This document shows, one piece after another, positions 39,388 through 57,468 of a stretch of DNA of 64,000 nucleotides. Position 1 is the first letter of the stretch. Every line of letters begins with the position of its first letter. The notes beneath the pieces are model-generated. The model was not told where the DNA came from and did no database searches. It saw only the letters and a list, made by a program, of their open reading frames with translations. Origin of the DNA: Turneriella sp. (GTDB lineage Bacteria; Spirochaetota; Leptospiria; Turneriellales; Turneriellaceae); assembly GCA_019186965.1 (NCBI GenBank), contig JABARV010000004.1:1-64000 (forward strand). Reading direction: 5' to 3'. The position numbers and the translations under genes were made by a program.

Positions 39388-39747
39388 ATGAAGTTGATGA
39401 TTGTAGACGATTCGCTCATTATGCGTAAAGCTATTGAAAAGTATTTGGCGGAGCTAGGGTTAGAACTTGTCGCAACTGCCGGCGATGGAAAATCAGCTAT
39501 TGAGCTTTTTGAAAAGCACAAACCGGATATCGTAACGCTCGACATTACTATGCCAGAAATAGACGGTCTTGCTGTTTTAAAAAAGGTTATCGCTATTAAG
39601 CCCGATACAAAAGTCCTTATCGTTACGGCAATCACCGAAAAATCAACTGCTATCTATGCGTTAAAAAACGGCGCAAAAGGTTTTTTAAATAAACCTTTTA
39701 CCGAAGAATCGCTAAAAGATGCAATGCGTGAAATTATAGGAAGCTAA
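39388..39747 (+). CDS. CheY-like response regulator
   Basis: A 119-residue single-domain receiver. Acidic pocket VDDS at 6-9, phospho-acceptor Asp in VTLDITMPEIDGLAV (about 52), switch Thr/Ser in LIVTAIT and the Lys in FLNKPFTEESL. No output domain, so it signals by protein contact. It begins a signalling module: its stop is directly followed by the CheX-like start, and a CheA-like kinase comes next. Most likely the kinase phosphorylates this protein and CheX removes the phosphate. Confidence 0.85.
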   Translation: MKLMIVDDSLIMRKAIEKYLAELGLELVATAGDGKSAIELFEKHKPDIVTLDITMPEIDGLAVLKKVIAIKPDTKVLIVTAITEKSTAIYALKNGAKGFLNKPFTEESLKDAMREIIGS

Positions 39748-39748
39748 T

Positions 39749-40207
39749 GTGAAAGAAGCCGAACTAAAACATTTTGTTGAAAGCACTCTCATGTATTTCG
39801 CACAAACAACTGGCGAAAAGGCCGAACTAGGTTTACCGTATGTAAAGAAGGAAAACGAAGAAGTGCTTCTAGAGTATACCGGTATTATCGGGATTACGGG
39901 AGATCGCAAAGGTGGCATCTACATAACATGCGATCGTGTTTTGCTTAGAGAGTTGGTGCAAATTGTGATGGGAGATTTAAACATCGACGATAACGCAATC
40001 AAAGACATGGTAGGAGAAATCGCAAATACAATTTCAGGTAACGCAACGCGTGCATTTGGTCGTAATTTCAATATTTCTGTACCAATGCTTTTGGAAGGCC
40101 CAGCAAAAGGGCTTAACCTTCCTATTTACGCTCCAAGCTTTGTAATTCCTGCGACTTGGCGAAAACATAAATTCTACATTGTCGTGGGTGTTAGCGATAA
40201 AATATGA
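39749..40207 (+). CDS. cheX: CheX-like phosphatase
   Basis: A 152-residue CheX/CheC-type protein that accelerates CheY-P hydrolysis. The family signature is the ExxN helix, here in VGEIANTISGNATRAFG (about 87-103), preceded by a strand GGIYITCDRV. Length is normal. It uses a GTG start two bases after the response regulator stop and overlaps the kinase start by 4 bases, so the three proteins are made together. Confidence 0.8.
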   Translation: MKEAELKHFVESTLMYFAQTTGEKAELGLPYVKKENEEVLLEYTGIIGITGDRKGGIYITCDRVLLRELVQIVMGDLNIDDNAIKDMVGEIANTISGNATRAFGRNFNISVPMLLEGPAKGLNLPIYAPSFVIPATWRKHKFYIVVGVSDKI

Positions 40208-42357
40208 CGGACCAACGGACGCATGTTAAACAGCGTTCACGAATTACCACCAATTTAGATTTTCATGCGCAATGCCTCGCGGCTATTTCGGCGCATGGAG
40301 AATGGAAAGTTTACTTGCGCCGTGCTGTACAAAATAATGGCAAAGGTTTAGATGTACAACAAGTCGCTTTAGATAACCAATGTGTATTTGGAAAATGGTT
40401 GTATTCCGAGACTGGCATCCTCTACAGCAACGATAGAAATTACTCTATCGTTAAAGCCTTGCACGCAGATTTTCACCGTGAAGCGGGAAGGGTTGTAGAA
40501 CTTTGCAAAAACCACGAACCACACAAGGCATTAGACGCAATTAGCGAGAATTCTTACTATTCTCAAATTTCAAAAAATTTATCTGCAGCTGTCCAAGAGT
40601 GGTTACGTGAAAAAAATTTTTTAGAGAGCACAGAAGGTCCTGACAGCGCAGAACTTCAAGAAAAACGGCCATGGGGGATGCTTTTACGTTACTCTTTCGT
40701 TGGATTTCTTTCGGGCTTTGGTTTATTGTTGGCTGCTTTCGCTATTATTAAATTTCATTCAGGATGGAATCTTAGCTTTAGCAATATCCACCACGCATTT
40801 GCCGTATATCCGTTATTATACATTATTGTGCTTTCACCCATGATTTTAGCGGTTTCGGGTTATGTTATTGGAAAATATGTTGCAAAGACTCGTTTTTTTA
40901 CCAAATCACTCCATATACTTGTCGAAAATAGAACAAGGCAACTTTTCAAAGAAAAAGAGGGATTATCACGGCTTTTTGAAAATTTGAGCGATGGCGTTTT
41001 CTTCATAAGAGCCAACCACACGATTGGAGCCCAATACTCACATGCTTTAGAAGAAATTTTTGAAAACACAGAACTTCAAGATAGGCCGTTATCAGTAATC
41101 TTTGCAGGCCGTATAGAAATAGGTTTAGCTAAAGATATCGACAGCTATTTAGATTTGCTTTTCGATAAAACTTTTTCCGAAGCGATGCTCTCGGAGTTAA
41201 ATCCACTAAATCCATTGAGGATACATGGGACAGAAGGGCATAGTGAAAAAATTATCCAAATTCGGTTTAAAAGAATTCTTGATGCAGAGGGGGAAATTGA
41301 AGGATTGCTGTGTATCGCAACTGACATTACTCGTGAGCATGAGCTGAGCGTAAAGTTGGAGGCGGAGCAGGAAGCAAAGCGACACCAAATGGAAATGCTA
41401 CAAGAAATTTTTGACATAGGTCCGCAGATGCTCATGGTATTTAAAGAACAAACCGAGACAGAACTCGACATGCTTACAGATGTATTGCGTAGAGATATTC
41501 ATGGCGATTTAAAGGAAAAAGTGGAATTGTTTTTTCGTGCGATACATTCAGTAAAAGGAGCCGCTGCACTTTTGGGATTAAAGCACATCGCCACCCTTGC
41601 GCACCGCTACGAAGACCGTTTAGCGCAACTTCAAGCAAAGTCTACTATGGAAAAGATTGATTTTCTTTCGCTTTCTGTTTTCCATGGAAATTTAATCGAG
41701 GCGCTTAAAGAAATGGAAAGCCTGCTGGATAAAATTAAAGGTTTTCAGTTGAGCGCAAAAGAAAAAATTGAAGATGAAATTTCTCTTACAGAAGAGCTTA
41801 CAGCACGCCTTGTACAAAGTGCAGCAGAAAAAGAAAATAAACAGGTTCACATACAATTTAAAAATTTTAATCGCGAAAATTTACCGAAAGAAATTGCAGC
41901 TGACTTACGGAAAATTCTTGTGCAACTTGTCCGTAACTCCGTTGTCCATGGTATTGAGACAAGCAAAGAAAGGCAAAGCTTAGCTAAAAATGAAAAAGGG
42001 TTGATTTCTATCGAAGCGAAGAAAAGAAAAACTGGCTTTCGTATAAGCTACCGTGACGATGGTTCGGGTTTTAAGCCGCAGCGGATACGTGAAAAAATTA
42101 TTGAAAAAAATTTACTTACACGCGAAGAGGTAAATATGCTTTCTGATAAAGAAGTGGTTAAGTACATTTTTCACAGCAATTTTTCTACTGCATCAAAAAC
42201 AAGTTTGCTGGCGGGGCGTGGAATGGGAATGGGAATCGTAGCGCAAAAAGTACATGAATGGGGAGGAAAAATATATTTACGCTGGAAAGAAGGGAAATAT
42301 GTGCATTTTTTGTTTAAAATTCCAAAAACAATTTCTTCGCGTCGTATATTAGACTAA
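40204..42357 (+). CDS. CheA-like hybrid kinase with CZB zinc sensor, PAS, HPt and ATPase domains
   Basis: A 717-residue membrane sensor kinase. N-terminal CZB (chemoreceptor zinc-binding) domain: His near 21, QCVFGKWLYSE with Cys about 60, and ALHADFHREAG with His about 86 and 90. Two membrane helices follow (about 160-184 and 200-222), then a PAS-like domain (LFENLSDGVFFIRANH), a linker and an HPt-like helix with FFRAIHSVKGAAALLGL (phospho-acceptor His about 447). The C-terminal ATPase domain shows LVRNSVVHGIETSKERQ (N box), RDDGSGFKP and GRGMGMGIVAQKV. Unlike CheA it has no visible CheW-like (P5) domain or response-regulator docking domain, and it is not linked to chemoreceptors. CZB domains bind zinc and can respond to zinc or oxidants. 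Confidence 0.75.
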   Translation: MTDQRTHVKQRSRITTNLDFHAQCLAAISAHGEWKVYLRRAVQNNGKGLDVQQVALDNQCVFGKWLYSETGILYSNDRNYSIVKALHADFHREAGRVVELCKNHEPHKALDAISENSYYSQISKNLSAAVQEWLREKNFLESTEGPDSAELQEKRPWGMLLRYSFVGFLSGFGLLLAAFAIIKFHSGWNLSFSNIHHAFAVYPLLYIIVLSPMILAVSGYVIGKYVAKTRFFTKSLHILVENRTRQLFKEKEGLSRLFENLSDGVFFIRANHTIGAQYSHALEEIFENTELQDRPLSVIFAGRIEIGLAKDIDSYLDLLFDKTFSEAMLSELNPLNPLRIHGTEGHSEKIIQIRFKRILDAEGEIEGLLCIATDITREHELSVKLEAEQEAKRHQMEMLQEIFDIGPQMLMVFKEQTETELDMLTDVLRRDIHGDLKEKVELFFRAIHSVKGAAALLGLKHIATLAHRYEDRLAQLQAKSTMEKIDFLSLSVFHGNLIEALKEMESLLDKIKGFQLSAKEKIEDEISLTEELTARLVQSAAEKENKQVHIQFKNFNRENLPKEIAADLRKILVQLVRNSVVHGIETSKERQSLAKNEKGLISIEAKKRKTGFRISYRDDGSGFKPQRIREKIIEKNLLTREEVNMLSDKEVVKYIFHSNFSTASKTSLLAGRGMGMGIVAQKVHEWGGKIYLRWKEGKYVHFLFKIPKTISSRRILD

Positions 42358-42367
42358 CAAATTTTCC

Positions 42368-44812
42368 GTGTCAAGTTTACCAATTGCAGATATTTTAGCC
42401 GAACTAAAAGAAAAACTCCAAAGCGCACCGGCAGTACTTTTAACCGCGGATACGGGTTCTGGAAAAACAACATGGCTGCCTTTGCAACTTTTGCAAGAGG
42501 CGTGGCTTAAAAACAAAAAAATAATTATGCTCGAACCACGACGCGTCGCCGCAAGGCAAGCAGCGTATCGCTTGGCGCACCATTTAAACGAGAGCGTGGG
42601 ACAAAAAGTGGGATACTCGGTGCGCTTCGACAGCAAAGTAAGCGCAGACACGCGTCTTGAAGTAGTGACAGAAGGAGTTCTTGCACGCAGAATCGCACAG
42701 GATGCTGAACTTAAAGATGTAGGGTTACTTATTTTTGACGAATTCCATGAGAGGCATAGCGAGACCGATATTGCCCTTGCGCTTGCTTTAGAAAGTATTC
42801 GCGTTTTTCGCGCAGACTTAAAACTTTTAGTAATGTCGGCGACAATTGACACTGAAAGAACATCTGCGTTTCTTAAGCAAACATTAGGTAAAGATATCCC
42901 TGTAGTCCGTTCAAAAGGTACAAATTATCCTGTTGGAATTTTTTACGTTGATATACCAACACAGCAGATGGGTGTAAAAAAACAAGGCGCTCCTTCGTTA
43001 AAAGACATCGCCCTTTTTGCTGCGCGGCAAGCGCTCGCGGCGCATAAAAAACATACAGGTGACATTCTCGTGTTTCTTCCGGGAAAAGCGGAAATCTATA
43101 CTGCAATAGAATACCTAGAAAAATACAATCTTGAGCGTACGCAAATTCTACCGCTGCACGGCGAACTTTCGGCGAAAGAACAAGATTTGGCGTTACGGCC
43201 AAACACTAAAGTATGCCGCATAATTTTTTCAACGCCTATCGCAGAATCAAGTATCACCGTCGATGGGCTCTCTGTCGTAATCGATTCAGGACTTTACCGC
43301 CAAAGTGTTTTTAACCCTGCAACAGGAATTTCTTCTCTCGAGACTTTTCCCATTACGCAAGATTCTGCGGTACAACGCACAGGACGTGCAGGACGTACCC
43401 GTGAAGGTGTTTGTTATCGGCTTTATAGCGAGGCGGATTTTAAAAGGCGACCACGAACACGGGTGCCTGAAATTTTACGTAGCGATCTTGCCGAACAAAT
43501 GCTACGCTCGCTTAGTTTTGGAGCACACCTTAGAGATTTGCCATTACTTGACAAGCCTTCGTTGGCGCACCTTAACGAGGCTGAGCGCCTCCTAAATAAT
43601 TTAGGACTTTGTGTATCAGAAAAATTAACTACAGCTGGAAGCGTTGCAGCAAAATTGCCTATTAATCCACGCCTTGCAGCAATGCTTGCGCACATTTGCA
43701 CCGATGAGATTTTGCGTATTGCAGCAGAGCTTTCGGAAAAAGAAAAAAACGCTCAACAACTTTTATATACCCAACTAAAAAATTTTTTTACAAAAAACAC
43801 CAAAAAAGAAAACACACAGGGCAATGGTTTTTTTGCTAAAATTCCTCCAGCTTTAGCGCTCCTTTATGCATACCCCGATCGCGTAGCCATGCGACGCAAG
43901 AACGAAGGCTTTGTGCTCGTATCGGGGCGCGGGCTTCTTGTTGCACCTTCGGATGCGTTAAACGAAGCAGAATTTATTCTCGCGTTAGATGTTGTTGAAG
44001 ATGCCAAAACAAATAGCGCTAAACTACGGGACGGCATTCCCATTACACGCGAAGATATTTATACCCGTTTCAAAGACTCTATAGCAACAAAAAAAATAAT
44101 TCGTGGAGAAGGAACTTCCGTACGCGAATTTGGAGTAGAGGCTTTGGGAGAATTAATTCTTTCTGAAAAGGAAATTACCCTTTCGGAAGAAAAGAAAAAA
44201 GAAATTGCTTTAAAAAACTTTTACGCTGAAAAAATTATAAAGTGGTTTGATGAAGAAGCATTAAATTTTTGTGCACGTATAGAAATTTTACGCACACTTG
44301 GAGAAAATTTTCCAATTTCTACAGTTTCTTATTTAGAAAAAACTGTAGATACATGGCTTAGTCCATTTTTGGAAACAATCCAAGACTCTAATGGAATAAC
44401 TACTTCTCTTATTAAAGAAGCGCTTTTTGCACGGCTTAGTTACAACCTAAAATCACGGTTGGATAATCTATTGCCGAAGTATACCACGCTTCCCAGTGGG
44501 GCCACACATCCTATATCCTACACCGACGGAAGAGCAAAAGTAAGCGTACGCATCCAAGAAGTTTTTGGGCTTAAAACGCACCCATCTTTAGCGGAAGGAA
44601 AAGTTAGCCTTACATTTGAACTGCTTTCGCCAGCGCACAAACCTATTGCAACAACGCAAAATTTATCTGCATTTTGGAAAACAACGTATAGCGAAGTTCG
44701 TAAAGAATTACGCGGGCGTTATCCAAAACATTTTTGGCCAGAAGACCCACTTTCAATGCAGGGAACAACGCGCACAAAAAAAGCAGTCGATCGCGAAAAA
44801 AATAGAAATTAA
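42368..44812 (+). CDS. hrpB: ATP-dependent helicase HrpB (DEAH-type)
   Basis: An 814-residue superfamily 2 helicase. Motif I is TADTGSGKTTWLP (about 30-42), motif Ia EPRRVAARQAA, motif II DEFHERH, motif III SATIDTE, motif VI QRTGRAGRTREGVCYRLY, plus the HrpB-type C-terminal domain (LPKYTTLPSGATHPISYTDG, FWPEDPL). GTG start at 42368 after a weak site; the preceding gene ends 10 bases earlier. It ends in a 4-base overlap with the convergent PerR-like gene. The physiological role of HrpB in bacteria is poorly known. Confidence 0.9.
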   Translation: MSSLPIADILAELKEKLQSAPAVLLTADTGSGKTTWLPLQLLQEAWLKNKKIIMLEPRRVAARQAAYRLAHHLNESVGQKVGYSVRFDSKVSADTRLEVVTEGVLARRIAQDAELKDVGLLIFDEFHERHSETDIALALALESIRVFRADLKLLVMSATIDTERTSAFLKQTLGKDIPVVRSKGTNYPVGIFYVDIPTQQMGVKKQGAPSLKDIALFAARQALAAHKKHTGDILVFLPGKAEIYTAIEYLEKYNLERTQILPLHGELSAKEQDLALRPNTKVCRIIFSTPIAESSITVDGLSVVIDSGLYRQSVFNPATGISSLETFPITQDSAVQRTGRAGRTREGVCYRLYSEADFKRRPRTRVPEILRSDLAEQMLRSLSFGAHLRDLPLLDKPSLAHLNEAERLLNNLGLCVSEKLTTAGSVAAKLPINPRLAAMLAHICTDEILRIAAELSEKEKNAQQLLYTQLKNFFTKNTKKENTQGNGFFAKIPPALALLYAYPDRVAMRRKNEGFVLVSGRGLLVAPSDALNEAEFILALDVVEDAKTNSAKLRDGIPITREDIYTRFKDSIATKKIIRGEGTSVREFGVEALGELILSEKEITLSEEKKKEIALKNFYAEKIIKWFDEEALNFCARIEILRTLGENFPISTVSYLEKTVDTWLSPFLETIQDSNGITTSLIKEALFARLSYNLKSRLDNLLPKYTTLPSGATHPISYTDGRAKVSVRIQEVFGLKTHPSLAEGKVSLTFELLSPAHKPIATTQNLSAFWKTTYSEVRKELRGRYPKHFWPEDPLSMQGTTRTKKAVDREKNRN

Positions 44813-45219
44813 ACGTGTATAACGACAGACGCTGTTTTTCTTTTAGGCACGTGTGGGTTTTTAAGCCACATTGCCTGCAGAAAAGAATCACGCTCCTCTG
44901 GTGTAAACTTAACATCGTACACTTCGCCTGTTTTACTGTTAACAACATGGTCGTGTTCAGCCATGTTGGAATCGTAAAGGAGTACGTCGCTACGCGCACG
45001 CAATGTTTTTAGGAGGCCATGCTCTGCAAAAAGGTTAAGTACGTTAAAAACTGTCGCACGGGAGACACGCGGAAAATCGGTATTTATTTCGCGAAAAATT
45101 TCTTCTGCAGTAAAATGGCGGCAAGTGCCCAGTATATGTTTTGCAATCTCCAGTTTTTGGAGCGAAATGCGTAATCCACGTTCTTTAAGTAACTTCGCAA
45201 TTTCAGCAGAGCCCTTCAT
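44809..45219 (-). CDS. Fur-family regulator, PerR-like
   Basis: A 136-residue ferric-uptake-regulator family protein with the winged-helix part (LKERGLRISLQKLEIAKHIL, HFTAEEIFREINTDFPRVSRATVFNVLNLF split in two helices) and a dimer domain with LYDSNMAEHDHVVNSKTGEVYDV (His-rich metal site). The two CxxC motifs for structural zinc are absent, as in some PerR-like spirochaete proteins. A PerR-like box overlaps its own promoter region (see 45224-45250), so auto-regulation is likely. The end overlaps hrpB by 4 bases. Confidence 0.75.
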   Translation of the reverse strand: MKGSAEIAKLLKERGLRISLQKLEIAKHILGTCRHFTAEEIFREINTDFPRVSRATVFNVLNLFAEHGLLKTLRARSDVLLYDSNMAEHDHVVNSKTGEVYDVKFTPEERDSFLQAMWLKNPHVPKRKTASVVIHV

Positions 45220-51649: not shown

Positions 51650-54600
51650 TTAAGGCCCAACTTTTGTGGGAGTGCCTGAAAAATCGACGGTACAACTTGA
51701 ACTCTGGTAATTTTTTTGCGTCTTCCATGTACCGCCGTTTGTAATGCAGCTACGCGCCATTGCTTGTCCAGAACTCGAAGTTCCTGCACCCGAGCAAAAA
51801 GTACCCCAATATGCTCCATAAGAGCCGACTGCGCCCAAATCTCCCGCTTGCAAGCCCTCACGGATACACTGCCAGTTGTCATTATTGTCGGCACTTTCGT
51901 CTGTGCAATAGGTGCTGGAGCCACCTAAAGGAGCGGTGTTGTTAAACCCTTTGGGATCAGGGAAGCCTACATAACTATCGTCTGTACCCATTGCCCAACC
52001 CAAAATCCCCGAACCTGTTCCTTTAAGCATACTCCACATATCCGAACAGCTGCCGGTGCAGCCGTTACTACCCAAGCCGTCATCCAAATTTCCGCCGATG
52101 GAAGTCAGCCCCCCCCAAATGATTTCGTCGGTCACTTTGTTGATACCAAAGGAACCACCGGAAAGTTTAGGCATAATGCTTTGGCAATTCGGCTGGCGGA
52201 CTCCTTGAGTTCCCGAACTCCAAGTGTAATAACCATATCGGTATGTGGTTGCACCATCTGTCAATGTTTCCTTGGGTCGAATACATTGTGTCGCTGTTGG
52301 TGCAGGTAAGCCGCTGTAACTTGAACCGACACTTTTACGCAAACCACCATCTGAGCCATCACTCCAAGAAACCGCAGGGCATGAACCGTTGTTCTCATCG
52401 TCATCACGCGCCCAACCGCAGTTCATCGCTGCAATTGACATTTGCCACCCCAGCGCGGACAGTAAACCTTCAAGGTATGGGCCTGCTTCGAGGTTAAGGA
52501 GTGCTGCCAAGCGGCGTGGACCAATCGCTGTGAACTCGAGGCAGCTGGGAGCTCCGGAATCTGCGCCTTGGGGAACGATACGCGTTCCAAAATGGATCAT
52601 CGACGCAAACGCTTTTGCAGTTTCATCTTCATCGTCGTCGAGGTTATTTGTCATGTATACTAAAGAACGGTTTACCGCCGCAGGGTGGGTTTCGTTAATA
52701 AGCGCTGCTGTAACAGCACCCGGTTGCCAGTTCACGAGTTGTGTTATGGCACGTAAGCGGCGCGTTGCATTCATCATGTCGATAGTTTTTTGAGTGTCTT
52801 GTACATCGCCGACGATATACGAAAATGCAGTGCCGTCGTTCACTTCAAGCATTGATTGTAAAAGGCGGTATCTGCCGTCTTTGGGATCGTTATTGTTGTA
52901 ATAACCACCGCCTGAAGGACCTTGTGTTGGTTTTTGGTAGCTTTGGTCGTCGCAGTCGTAGTAGATTGTATTTACCGTTTGCCAAGCAGCGCTCTTAGAT
53001 TGTTTTGCACGCCACAGGTATCCTGCAGCCGTGCAGGCTTCGGGGTATTGGTATGCAAGGTTTTGTACTACATTTGAAGAATTGATGCACGTTGGTCCAT
53101 ACTGGATGTATTTATCGTACGCGGGTCTAAGGCCGCACTTTTCAACCGCGTTCATAAGGCGCACCACACGCACTTGTTGACCAGTCGAGCGGGCACTTGC
53201 GCCGTTATATCCCAACTTGTTTACCACATCGCTGAGCGTTGCCATATCACCCACATTCTTTACGTTATCGACGCCGCCTTTCATGCGGGACGTGCCCAAA
53301 CCATTGAGGAGTGCGAGCATCTTTACGCGGTCTGCCCCTTCCCATATACCCGTGCCTCCGCCTGCCGCAAGACACGCGGCACGGGTGGTTTGTGTTGGGA
53401 AATTAGTACACCTACCCACGCCGAACCAGGTACCACCTGCTGATGCACAGGTAGTCGAATCATCGGTGGTGGTATTTATCCCCTGCACATACACCGAACA
53501 TGCATCGGCGCCGTTCATCACTTTAACCATGAGGTCGACGTTGGTGAGGTTGTTCACGATGTCGGTCATGTAGCGGATGCGAGTTAAGTTATCGATGAGG
53601 TACGATGCGTAGCCGATGTCTTGCACATAGACCATGAAATAAACTGTGTTGGGGATTTGCTCAATATTATTAATCATCTGGATGAGGCGGCCCAATTTAT
53701 CGGTCGTGTTCGTGTCGCAATCGGTTGTAGTGCAACCCGCGCCGCTGGGGTTCTCACCATACCAACCGTTTGTATCACCGTCATACGAACCTAAAGCACC
53801 CGTGCCGTACGTCGCATCGCCGTGCGTGTTTACAAGTGTGTTCACACGCGAAGGTTGGAGTACTGGGTGGTCTAAAAAGCGGATCATTAGGTCGGCGCTC
53901 GTCATTTCGCTCATGGTGCGCGAAAAATAACGAATGCGGTTGGTATTTTTGACGAGCCAAGTGCCGCTCGACGTTAGTTTGCCAAATGAAAGTTCGTTCA
54001 CCATCCGTGCCATGTTGAGGGGGCCGTTTGCACCCATGTCGGTCATGAGCGTCGTCATGCGGCCAAATTGGTCGGCGGTGGCGTTGGAGAGCGCATTGTT
54101 GTAAACAGGGGTCGCCATTGTCTTCATATCGTAGAGTGCGTCGGTCATGCGCTCTATACCGTTGTAACCGCCTACACCGTTGTCGGGGCGTAAGTTTCCG
54201 ACGATTTGCGCAATGGTGGTAGGGCCATAACCAGAACCCGCAAGGTCGTTCACAATACGTACGAAGTGGAATTTTATGCAAAAATTGGAGTTGATATCTC
54301 CCGGAGTACCTGTACAGTTCTGTGACATAGCGGCAGCTTTGGCATTGACCGCGCTAAAAAATTGTGCAAATTTTTTACCACCCGAAGCGCCCAATGTGGG
54401 ACCGTCATAAAAAAGCTCACCTTTTGAATAAGCAGTGTGTGTACCTGACCCTGTAGTGGTTATGTCAATCGCTGCGCCGCCTGGGGTCAAGCTCACTTGA
54501 AAGTCGTTTGCGGTGGCGTTCAGCATATAGTATTTTTTGCCGGGTTTGAGAGGAAGGGGCAAGGTACCCGTCGTGTCAAAATCAACGGGAGATTGTTCAC

Positions 54601-57256
54601 GGTAGTTATGTCCACTCCAAGTGATACGATCGGTTGCGGCATCAGCAGTCACCGCACTATACTTCCCCATATAAATGTTTCCCGACAGCGTCAGCTTCGA
54701 GAGCGCCACGGCGACGTGGCTGGTAGTGGTGGCACCGTTGATGAGGTCTGCAACATCAGAAATGTTGGCTCCGTCGTTCGCCGGTTCTGCGAGGGTGCGT
54801 AGCATGTTTGAGGTACCCGCTGCGGTGAGGCCAGTCAAGATACTGGCCGTCTTTGCACCGCCGCCAGTACCTAAACCGTTGATGAGAAGGGGTACATTGC
54901 GTGGAATTTCAACGTAGTCCATGAGCGCCACAAGCTGTTGGTACGAGCTATACGTGGTGAGGTTATTTAGCACCGCGTACATTTCACTCAGGTTTGAAAT
55001 CTCATTCACCGTCACCGCTAAACGGGGTTGTGAAATCGCCATGTGTATTCCGCTTCCCGCAGTCGATGTAGTGATTGAAGGGGAAGATGGAGTAAGCGCA
55101 AGCTCAAAATTATTTGCAGCAGCATTTTTTACATAGTAGACTGTGTTTGTTACTAATGGATTGGGAAGAGTGCCGCTCGAGGTGAGTTTAATCGCGGTAC
55201 CGTTAGCAAGGCTGTGGCCAAACCACGTTACTTTTGCAGGGCTGGCGTATGAAATCGTAACATAATCTTTAATACCCGCGCCACCTGCACCGCCTGGGTA
55301 TTCAGAGCGGTTGGCGGCGTAGATGAGCGCGTCCAAACCGTTGTCGTTGGTGGGAATACAGTTAATGGGGGTGTTGTTCCAGCAACCGGCAGGGGTTGCG
55401 GTTGCAGTGGTGTTGTTGAGTAAATCAGCGACGTTGGTCACCGAAGACTGGATATAAAGGTTATTCATTAGGATTGCTGTTTTTTCAGCGGCTGTTCGTG
55501 GAGCGCCTTTGTCTCCGGGTAAAACAACTGTGTCGATAAATACTTGGCCTGAGCTATTAGGTATCCGCTGTACATCGAAGCGGATACGTTTGATGCCCGT
55601 ACCAATTGCAATGGAACGTGGTTGGAAACCAGAACCTCCCGAAGCTTTAGTCCACGACCCCACCATCGTGTCGTCGATGAAAACGCGCAATATGTCGTAA
55701 GGTTCTAATGTATCAGTTTTTGTATAAAACGTAAGGTTACCTGCTGCTGTAAGGTTTGCAATAAGTTCAGCAGATTGTGTCGCTGTGCTAATGGTTGCGG
55801 GAGAGTTATCGTTACGCAAAGAACATGGTCCCGCTTGGGCAGGAGCTCCGCCTGTTACCCATGATTTATTGTTCCATGGGACAGCGGCAGGGCCGTTATC
55901 GGTAAACGCCCAGTTTAAGTAGTTATTGAAATTGCCTGTGGTGCAATTGAAGCCACCCGTCGTGTCGTCGAAATTGGTGTCGTTGCTAAAAACCGGCGTT
56001 TGGTCGAGCTGGTTCACCATGTAAGCCAAACGTTTCACTCCGTTAAGGCCATACTGGGCGTACGTGCCGGTGTCGCCCATGCTAGCGTTGTACACATTAT
56101 TGAGCGTTGCCACCATAATATCCACGCCATCGGGTGAGCCTGCAACATAAGGCTGGCCATCGTTGGTGAGGTTGTTTACGATGGTGTACATATTTGGTAC
56201 AACTGCGATATTGTTTACAATAACGGGAACTTTAGAAGCGATGGTGTGCCATGTTTCTCCATTGTTGCGGCAATCTTTGGCGTTTGTATATGCAAGGCTT
56301 GTACAGGTTGTAGCAAGCTGGTTTAAAACTTGCGTCATGTTTTCAATGCCGTCGGATGTCCAACTGCCACCAGCGGCAATGCAAGCGCTTTGTGTCGTGT
56401 AGGGGGAGCTTGGAGTTCCTGTGCTACAGTTGGTGTTTGTCCAAGTGCCGCCTGCCGCTGTGCAAGCCGTCTGGCTTGTGTGCTCGGGTTTTGAGCAGTA
56501 GATGTTACCGTTTAACCCAAGCATTACATCGGTGATGTTGCTAATGCTGGTCGTTTTATCGATAATTTCGTAGAGGTTCCATAAGTCGTGCGTGTCGTTA
56601 ACCATGCGGATAAGCTTTGCAGTACCAGTTGCAGAAAAACTACCTCCCGGTGCAGCGACATTATTGATAAGGACTGCCATGATACTGGGGCTTGCATTTT
56701 CGTTGAGAAGCGCAACAAGCATTCCCAAACGGTTCATGGCAGTGGTAACCCCAAATTTATCTGCGGGTTGATCGCGTACGCCATGGACAATATTTTTAAT
56801 CCCTTCCATGCCTGCTACAGTGACGCCGTTAATCATCCTTGCCATTTTTTTAATGGTATCGTTACCGTTTGGCATAAGCGTTGCGTTTTGGCATGCTGCA
56901 TCGAGCTTATTTAAAATGCCGACAACTTCTTCGGGTTTCAATTGCTTCGAGTTGGGGCCGTCGGAAAGTAACGCGACGAGTTTTCCAGGACCGTCGATTA
57001 AATTAAGCAAGGCAGTAATATTGGATATGCCAATACCGTAACTAATTAAATTAAGGTTATCTGCGCCAATTCCTGTAACAAGCGTATCGTAAGTGTGGGA
57101 ACCTAAAGCCGTGCGTAATTGGTCAGGGGTATAGTTTTGCCCTGCTTCGTTCATTTTGTTTTTTGCGAACTGCGTTTGTACCCTTTTGGGAGCACATGCG
57201 CTAAAGAATACTATAATAAAAAAACCGGTCAGTATTTTGGATGTCAAGCTTCCCAT
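51650..57256 (-). CDS. Giant repeat-rich lipoprotein
   Basis: About 1868 residues from the ATG at 57256, with an AGAGGG ribosome site 6 bases before; the frame is open further upstream but lacks such a site. The leader ends FFIIVFFSAC (lipobox). Much of the chain is built of helical repeats with Leu/Met/Asn spacing (as in RLGMLVALLNEN, IMAVLINNV, KLIRMVNDTH, YMTDIVNNLTN). Breaks hold: a beta-sandwich domain (about 460-620), two related 65-residue units starting TW-x-GH (see repeats), and at least seven C-x-x-x-G-G/E-x-W-type units such as TACTAAGGTW, SACIAAGGSW, TTCASAGGTW, SCITNGGTW. The Cys units may form disulphides on the surface. Function unknown; likely surface exposed and adhesive or scaffold-like. 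Confidence 0.75.
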   Translation of the reverse strand: MGSLTSKILTGFFIIVFFSACAPKRVQTQFAKNKMNEAGQNYTPDQLRTALGSHTYDTLVTGIGADNLNLISYGIGISNITALLNLIDGPGKLVALLSDGPNSKQLKPEEVVGILNKLDAACQNATLMPNGNDTIKKMARMINGVTVAGMEGIKNIVHGVRDQPADKFGVTTAMNRLGMLVALLNENASPSIMAVLINNVAAPGGSFSATGTAKLIRMVNDTHDLWNLYEIIDKTTSISNITDVMLGLNGNIYCSKPEHTSQTACTAAGGTWTNTNCSTGTPSSPYTTQSACIAAGGSWTSDGIENMTQVLNQLATTCTSLAYTNAKDCRNNGETWHTIASKVPVIVNNIAVVPNMYTIVNNLTNDGQPYVAGSPDGVDIMVATLNNVYNASMGDTGTYAQYGLNGVKRLAYMVNQLDQTPVFSNDTNFDDTTGGFNCTTGNFNNYLNWAFTDNGPAAVPWNNKSWVTGGAPAQAGPCSLRNDNSPATISTATQSAELIANLTAAGNLTFYTKTDTLEPYDILRVFIDDTMVGSWTKASGGSGFQPRSIAIGTGIKRIRFDVQRIPNSSGQVFIDTVVLPGDKGAPRTAAEKTAILMNNLYIQSSVTNVADLLNNTTATATPAGCWNNTPINCIPTNDNGLDALIYAANRSEYPGGAGGAGIKDYVTISYASPAKVTWFGHSLANGTAIKLTSSGTLPNPLVTNTVYYVKNAAANNFELALTPSSPSITTSTAGSGIHMAISQPRLAVTVNEISNLSEMYAVLNNLTTYSSYQQLVALMDYVEIPRNVPLLINGLGTGGGAKTASILTGLTAAGTSNMLRTLAEPANDGANISDVADLINGATTTSHVAVALSKLTLSGNIYMGKYSAVTADAATDRITWSGHNYREQSPVDFDTTGTLPLPLKPGKKYYMLNATANDFQVSLTPGGAAIDITTTGSGTHTAYSKGELFYDGPTLGASGGKKFAQFFSAVNAKAAAMSQNCTGTPGDINSNFCIKFHFVRIVNDLAGSGYGPTTIAQIVGNLRPDNGVGGYNGIERMTDALYDMKTMATPVYNNALSNATADQFGRMTTLMTDMGANGPLNMARMVNELSFGKLTSSGTWLVKNTNRIRYFSRTMSEMTSADLMIRFLDHPVLQPSRVNTLVNTHGDATYGTGALGSYDGDTNGWYGENPSGAGCTTTDCDTNTTDKLGRLIQMINNIEQIPNTVYFMVYVQDIGYASYLIDNLTRIRYMTDIVNNLTNVDLMVKVMNGADACSVYVQGINTTTDDSTTCASAGGTWFGVGRCTNFPTQTTRAACLAAGGGTGIWEGADRVKMLALLNGLGTSRMKGGVDNVKNVGDMATLSDVVNKLGYNGASARSTGQQVRVVRLMNAVEKCGLRPAYDKYIQYGPTCINSSNVVQNLAYQYPEACTAAGYLWRAKQSKSAAWQTVNTIYYDCDDQSYQKPTQGPSGGGYYNNNDPKDGRYRLLQSMLEVNDGTAFSYIVGDVQDTQKTIDMMNATRRLRAITQLVNWQPGAVTAALINETHPAAVNRSLVYMTNNLDDDEDETAKAFASMIHFGTRIVPQGADSGAPSCLEFTAIGPRRLAALLNLEAGPYLEGLLSALGWQMSIAAMNCGWARDDDENNGSCPAVSWSDGSDGGLRKSVGSSYSGLPAPTATQCIRPKETLTDGATTYRYGYYTWSSGTQGVRQPNCQSIMPKLSGGSFGINKVTDEIIWGGLTSIGGNLDDGLGSNGCTGSCSDMWSMLKGTGSGILGWAMGTDDSYVGFPDPKGFNNTAPLGGSSTYCTDESADNNDNWQCIREGLQAGDLGAVGSYGAYWGTFCSGAGTSSSGQAMARSCITNGGTWKTQKNYQSSSCTVDFSGTPTKVGP
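54430..55232 (-). repeat. Two copies of a 65-residue TW-GH domain inside the giant lipoprotein
   Basis: Within the coding sequence, units at about 55232-55030 (VTWFGHSLANGTAIKL, then TLPNPLVTNTVYYVKNA, ending GSGIHMAI) and 54627-54430 (ITWSGHNYREQSPVDF, then TLPLPLKPGKKYYMLNA, ending GSGTHTAY) are clearly homologous. This module is also common in phage and surface proteins. Confidence 0.7.
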
Positions 57257-57298
57257 TTTTAACCCTCTTTGCGTTTGCGCAAAAAATACGTATTTGTT

Positions 57299-57304
57299 AT
57301 TATA
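57299..57304 (-). promoter_or_regulatory. Candidate -10 for the giant lipoprotein gene
   Basis: On the minus strand TATAAT lies 43 bases before the ATG at 57256. No good -35 is seen at 17 bases. The rest of 57305-57468 (AT-rich) shows no gene. Confidence 0.3.
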
Positions 57305-57468
57305 AACATACGCGTACCAATCTACAGTGTATATGTGTTTACAAAACAAGTTTGTGCCAAAATAGTGAACAGGTGTTTAGTGCGGTGCAGTATATAAGTT
57401 CTGTAGAGGTGCAGAAATTCGCTATAGCTATGGAAAACCGTAGCTATTTTATACGGGCATTGTTTGCT

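Follow-up and report, generated by a model that had tools for sequence, protein, structure and literature searches.

A CheY–CheX–kinase trio of Turneriella sp. with a predicted CZB sensor as one variant of a Spirochaetota signalling module

Introduction

CheA is described as having no sensor of its own, being driven instead by receptor arrays through its P5 domain. In a survey of CheA proteins from 2023, P5 is given as a core domain of all CheAs (PMC10782961). In Turneriella sp., which is related to Leptospira and free-living, genes for a CheY, a CheX and a sensor kinase follow one another in that order at positions 39388–42357 (+) of a 64,000-nucleotide stretch of contig JABARV010000004.1 (the window, by which we mean the whole stretch). 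The original prediction was that this kinase combines a CZB sensor with two membrane helices, PAS, Hpt and ATPase domains but lacks P5/CheW, and that the trio may form a self-contained zinc- or oxidant-sensing system built from chemotaxis parts.

Results

Gene layout and genomic surroundings

The three genes are tightly coupled, as predicted and at exactly the coordinates predicted, with 1 nt between the CheY stop and the GTG start of CheX and a 4-nt overlap (ATGA) between CheX and the kinase (Table 1). Promoter-like sites were no commoner than in shuffled sequences, so the promoter/terminator scan does not delimit an operon. Upstream lie genes for an MptE-like protein, an MMPL transporter and a TPR protein, and downstream one for an HrpB helicase; these flanking genes are not kept at other CZB loci. 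Among the ~28 window genes scanned (a subset of the window ORFs) there was no chemoreceptor or CheW gene, in keeping with the prediction that the kinase does not sit with chemoreceptors, and no output gene was found at the window locus. Convergent with the HrpB gene is a gene for a Fur-family regulator (PF01475; window 44809–45219, −), a metal or peroxide regulator type. A 1899-residue ORF without a Pfam match at E ≤ 1e-4 occupies window positions 51650–57349 (−).

Ordinary CheA/CheW sets are present on contigs C1, C5 and C20 of the same genome (3.08 Mb, 99% complete) and absent from the contig of the trio. The genome has three CheX genes. A second kinase, of HAMP-Hpt-HATPase type and strongly diverged, lies on its contig C23 (L065:5971–9121) together with a CheY and a CheX-family gene.

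Table 1 Features of the CheY–CheX–kinase locus in the window.
Feature	Position	Strand	Evidence
CheY stand-alone receiver, 119 aa	39388..39747	+	Pfam Response_reg 101 bits
CheX phosphatase (predicted), 152 aa, GTG start	39749..40207	+	Pfam CheX 67.5 bits, cut-off 27
Sensor kinase, 717 aa: CZB - two membrane helices - PAS - Hpt - P4 ATPase	40204..42357	+	
CZB zinc-binding domain (predicted), residues 31-98	40294..40497	+	Pfam CZB 38.0 bits, cut-off 29.4
Two membrane helices, ~20-residue extracytoplasmic loop (predicted)	40672..40884	+	Sequence and AlphaFold helices
PAS domain, residues 264-374	40993..41325	+	AlphaFold model; Pfam PAS_4 sub-threshold
Hpt domain, residues 408-496, putative phospho-acceptor H448 in IHSVKG	41425..41691	+	Pfam 37.9 (cut-off 24.6)
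CheA-type P4 ATPase domain, residues 525-709	41776..42330	+	HATPase_c 49.8 bits (cut-off 26.4), residues 567-708

Architecture of the kinase

Pfam and AlphaFold together bear out the predicted succession of CZB domain, two membrane helices, PAS, Hpt and ATPase. PAS_4 scored 19.1 bits, under its cut-off of 23.1, and the model shows a mixed alpha/beta domain at residues 264–374. In the model, CZB helices (20–139) are followed by the membrane helices, a signalling helix, PAS, the Hpt bundle and P4 to about residue 709, and one continuous helix (484–543) joins Hpt and P4. The relative placement of the domains in this full-length model (mean pLDDT 75) is unreliable, since it was built from four sequences and reached a pTM of 0.34. 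The hydrophobic helices lie at about 157–186 and within 204–227, and the positive charges flanking them predict that the CZB and the catalytic parts are both cytoplasmic.

The P4 domain matched CheA chains at the sequence level (E 1e-22) and its model matched the CheA P4 structure 1i5c (Z 22.7, rmsd 2.0, 177 residues), whilst the Hpt model matched CheA P1 (Z 12.8). The putative catalytic residues H448, N578, D618, D619 and G671–G675 are intact; H448 is invariant among the CZB kinases. No HisKA-type domain was matched in the kinase, the putative phospho-histidine lying in the Hpt domain instead. The N-box of P4 reads QLVRNSVVHGIE, where the CheA counterpart is H..RN..DHG. Two conserved residues are therefore changed, H to Q and D to V, and the kinase rate may differ from that of CheA.

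The kinase ends about 8 residues past P4. It gave no CheW match at E ≤ 1 in Pfam, had no further domain after P4 in the model and was not among the seven CheW hits of its genome. The absence of P5/CheW, as originally predicted, rests on protein length and Pfam, a CheW-less structural search of the model being no proof alone. The linker was likewise searched for a CheW-like domain, with none found, and a CheW remnant there or downstream of the kinase was rejected on the Pfam search, the CheW hits of the genome and the model. Beyond what had been claimed, the kinase also lacks the P3 dimerisation domain (PF02895, no match at E ≤ 1 in Pfam). CheA P2 was not detected in it. With neither P5 nor P3, there is no known route by which it could dock in an array.

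Recurrence of the trio and the related Spirochaetota loci

The same trio, whose occurrence elsewhere had been raised alongside the original prediction, is found at full length and in unchanged order in further Leptospiraceae, namely three other genera represented by MAGs SKYG32 and SKYG28 and an uncultured bin, with 31–38% kinase identity. The trio is therefore not a chance arrangement. No further CZB kinases were found in the genomes of 84,980 species with two CZB peptide patterns, which may miss more divergent cases. In a genome-contig search, 3/22 matches were CZB kinases and most of the others were short CZB-only ORFs.

We further analysed kinases that match residues 230–717 but carry other N-termini (n = 36 related loci). 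CheY was found near 31 of these kinases and CheX near 26 (27 with the Pfam match at L065), and the H-x-x-KG motif of Hpt was present in 35/36 family kinases. The distances of kinase, CheY and CheX correlate (0.72, 0.65 and 0.86; 0/5000 permutations as high). Some of this co-variation may reflect species history. However, modules inside one genome are dissimilar whilst their counterparts across genomes are close, so species history alone does not account for it. As an independent check, 149 Spirochaetota genomes were searched with a kinase profile, and 27 carried the kinase at E ≤ 1e-75. When 17 further loci were selected solely on the kinase, CheX was adjacent in 15 and contiguous CheY-CheX-kinase, in that order, was present in 13.

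The N-termini varied widely across the family. In addition to the CZB with two membrane helices, this included dCache/HAMP (L048), HAMP (L045, L141), GAF (L053), MASE6 (L075, L130), 7TMR-DISM (L046, its clade mates being assigned by tree) and an ammonium transporter, Amt (L054, L129, L131, L132, L134, L143). Among the ten kinases of the second locus set that were scanned, Amt occurred most often as the sensor. In these other Spirochaetota it is fused to PAS-Hpt-P4 without P5, with CheX adjoining and mostly also CheY, and the Amt kinases are possibly an ammonium-sensing version of the module.

Putative output genes differed likewise. A class III nucleotide cyclase, with its receiver recognised or not, lay within about two genes at 15/36 loci (~0.02 expected per locus), and a sigma factor adjoined the kinase at 6/36. 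The latter loci (L046, L047, L049, L050, L051 and L077, in the window's genus) are triads of CheY, kinase and a sigma-70-like factor. CheX is absent from all six and so is not essential to the design. A kinase-to-sigma-factor link of this type would be unusual. At L045, L048 and L076, also in the window's genus, a tandem pair of CheX genes adjoins a single CheY, with a few genes between them and the kinase.

Outside the phylum, a plasmid search returned Burkholderiales PAS-Hpt-P4 kinases without P5 on Burkholderia, Caballeronia and Ideonella replicons (L102, L103, L105), with no clear adjacent CheX; a CheX search of plasmids gave no match. The Ideonella kinase adjoins a methyl-accepting protein gene, and diversity-generating retroelement genes lie a few genes off. 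A Cupriavidus kinase from the same search (L104) proved to be an ordinary CheA that has both P5 and a receiver.

The window trio is thus one variant of a widespread Spirochaetota module in which sensors and output genes are swapped. The notion of a self-contained system made of chemotaxis parts held up in so far as the unit is conserved, its proteins co-vary and the kinase lacks CheA-defining features, but it was too narrow, as the module is phylum-wide.

Relation of the family to CheA

In an unrooted P4 tree, a branch (98/89) separated all 36 P5-less kinases from ten CheAs encoded in the same or related genomes. The four CZB kinases did not group together on P4 alone. In a PAS-Hpt-P4 tree they form a clade (95/92), which is sister (99/95) to the kinases beside a sigma-70-like factor. 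Most family members, the window kinase included, share an N-box of the form Q..RN..[not D]HG, and 9/9 readable spirochaete CheAs carry the N-box H and D. Both residues are kept in the distant members L138–L141 and in the Burkholderiales relatives.

CheY, CheX and the candidate outputs

The window CheY has a receiver fold with the active-site residues D7, D8, D52, T80 and K102 and no output domain; D7, D8, D52 and K102 were invariant across 13 aligned receivers. Among solved CheYs, those of thermophiles come closest to it (E 4e-28 and below 1e-23). The ExxN motif of the window CheX (E90/N93) is intact and both residues were invariant in 12 sequences. Its profile matched the CheX structures 3hm4, 3h4y, 3iic and 6vpw and, more weakly, 3hzh and 1xko.

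These two proteins are compatible with a route to the flagellar motor, in which CheY would provide an extra, array-independent swimming input parallel to the ordinary chemotaxis systems. We consider this possible, if somewhat doubtful. The lack of an output domain and the resemblance to chemotaxis CheYs point to it, as do the CheA/CheW systems present in the genome and the kind of phosphatase, CheX being the type that acts on CheY in spirochaetes (3hzh, Borrelia CheX with CheY3). However, the window CheY is only 34% identical to the che-operon CheY of its own genome, compared to 45–69% for the CheYs of related modules, and the cyclase or sigma factor outputs at sister loci point to other targets.

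The cyclases at these sister loci bear on a further alternative, namely that CheY and CheX act as a phosphate drain. The real target of the kinase would then be an orphan receiver-cyclase on contig C8 or C1, with CheY and CheX setting its phosphorylation time. Besides the frequency of linked cyclases given above, the genome itself lends this some weight, as its 14 class III nucleotide cyclases include two orphan receiver-cyclases of the module type. The C8 protein shares 57% identity with the cyclase adjoining module L075 in a congener, and the CheX of L075 is the nearest relative of the window CheX. In Leptospira kobayashii cAMP quickly alters swimming (PMC9043183), so a cAMP output would make sense. 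Nevertheless, the two cyclases are unlinked to the window trio, the L075 kinase is not the nearest relative of the window kinase, and at L045, L048 and L076 the adjacent cyclase has no recognised receiver, such that we judge the drain rather unlikely. The orphan genes themselves (L116:6838–7902, +; L117:5882–6958, −) have no family kinase nearby.

The CZB domain

The window CZB is the only one in its genome. Its predicted zinc ligands H31, C60, H87 and H91 were invariant in the four kinases and 11 other CZBs; the C60 region belonged to the CZB search pattern and H87/H91 lay outside it. Since a search of PDB sequences gave no real match, a structural comparison was made. The CZB-only model (pLDDT 88, pTM 0.81) matched the DgcZ CZB 3t9o with Z 11.5 (rank 4) and a Foldseek probability of 0.99, although other helical bundles score alike. 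The stronger evidence for the predicted domain is hence its Pfam score together with the four invariant ligands, and by homology zinc- or oxidant-sensing by the window kinase, as originally suggested, is plausible.

CZB is a sensor in TlpD and DgcZ, where a response to zinc or to Cys oxidation has been reported (PMC8262984). Such a role is not a given, as the domain could instead be a structural zinc domain, the signal entering through the membrane helices or PAS. Most family kinases have a PAS without a CZB, and the zinc affinity of the DgcZ CZB is very high (PMC8262984), both of which suit a structural part. On the other hand, the CZB sits where sister kinases have plain sensors (Amt, 7TMR-DISM, Cache, GAF), which together with its sensing role in TlpD and DgcZ makes a purely structural function improbable in our view.

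Discussion

We favour, with reasonable though limited confidence, an array-free phosphorelay in which the kinase passes phosphate to CheY, CheX resets the system and the CZB provides a cytoplasmic zinc/redox input. The kinase would be a membrane protein, presumably a dimer, with its N-terminal CZB facing the cytoplasm, where three His and one Cys of the domain would coordinate zinc. A change in zinc loading, or in the oxidation state of C60, would alter a signal that runs through the membrane helices and the signalling helix to PAS and on to Hpt-P4. P4 would phosphorylate H448 of Hpt, and the phosphoryl group would pass from there to D52 of the neighbouring CheY. CheX would then strip it from CheY-P. 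If CheX resets the system in this way, then CheW, a chemoreceptor and adaptation enzymes are not needed. The output may be the motor, a receiver-cyclase or another protein whose gene lies away from the window locus.

That the kinase is merely a decayed or mis-assembled CheA, having lost P5 and gained a CZB by accident, might be read from its CheA-like P4 and the two altered N-box residues, but is highly improbable and was rejected, because four genera share this architecture and it occurs with different sensors throughout the phylum, the catalytic residues being kept.

With CheA the kinase shares an Hpt (P1) domain with a putative phospho-acceptor His and a CheA-type P4. P3, a P5/CheW-like domain and linked CheW or chemoreceptors are absent, and the branch in the P4 tree sets it apart. 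The trio has all the parts of the module, namely a P5-less PAS-Hpt-P4 kinase with adjacent CheY and CheX. The CheA and CheX-type systems of Thermotoga and Borrelia are similar in having Hpt, P4 ATPase, CheY and CheX; in contrast to these, the window trio has no P3, P5, CheW, receptor or adaptation enzymes, and its sensor is fused to the kinase. Chemosensory control of cAMP by Pil-Chp of Pseudomonas offers a likeness to the sister loci only, as a chemotaxis-type kinase with a cyclic-nucleotide output. Unlike the module, Pil-Chp works with a receptor and CheW-type adaptors, and its CheA-type kinase is complete.

Other spirochaetes also pair a CheA-type kinase with the CheX phosphatase family, as in the F1 systems of Leptospira, where CheC/CheX is fused to CheA (PMC10782961); those are, however, true CheAs with P5, and the phosphatase is in the same protein. 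The Amt sensor kinase of Kuenenia, Amt-SHK, likewise has a membrane sensor fused to a kinase, of the same sensor kind as in the Amt version of the module (PMC5764959). It differs in that the kinase part of the module is Hpt-P4 with CheY and CheX, and the paper on it mentions neither CheA nor CheY. TlpD-like chemoreceptors and DgcZ-like diguanylate cyclases share the 3His/1Cys CZB, and the cyclase subgroup shares a Trp that follows the first zinc His by three residues (W34 after H31 in the window kinase). Unlike in these proteins, the window CZB is fused to a histidine kinase, and none of the seven subgroups in a CZB survey is a histidine kinase (PMC8262984). In the literature searched, mostly outside subscription journals, no description of a CheY-CheX-Hpt-P4 module was found, which does not prove novelty. 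The window kinase joins two known kinds, CZB proteins and CheA-related phosphorelays, within a spirochaete module family worth its own description.

More tentatively, the family may represent a Spirochaetota design that stands beside two-component systems and receptor arrays. In this design, CheA-related kinases outside the array, lacking P3 and P5, would carry one of several interchangeable sensors (CZB, ammonium transporter, 7TMR-DISM, Cache, GAF), have a CheY and a CheX of their own for reset and be wired to nucleotide cyclases or sigma factors. The version here would then feed a zinc/redox signal into cyclic nucleotides and motility without an array. Turneriella parva, the free-living type species of the genus, has three such kinases (L048, L049, L072). 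The CZB version, if a sensor kinase, would extend the outputs known for this zinc/oxidant sensor by a histidine kinase. The sister loci suggest that chemotaxis-type phosphorelays of spirochaetes can have cyclic nucleotides as an output. Finally, the catalytic parts of CheA are conserved here without P3, P5 or an array, together with a fused sensor and a dedicated CheY-P phosphatase. This makes the module a natural test of the roles of P3 and P5, and of why a fast phosphatase is kept.
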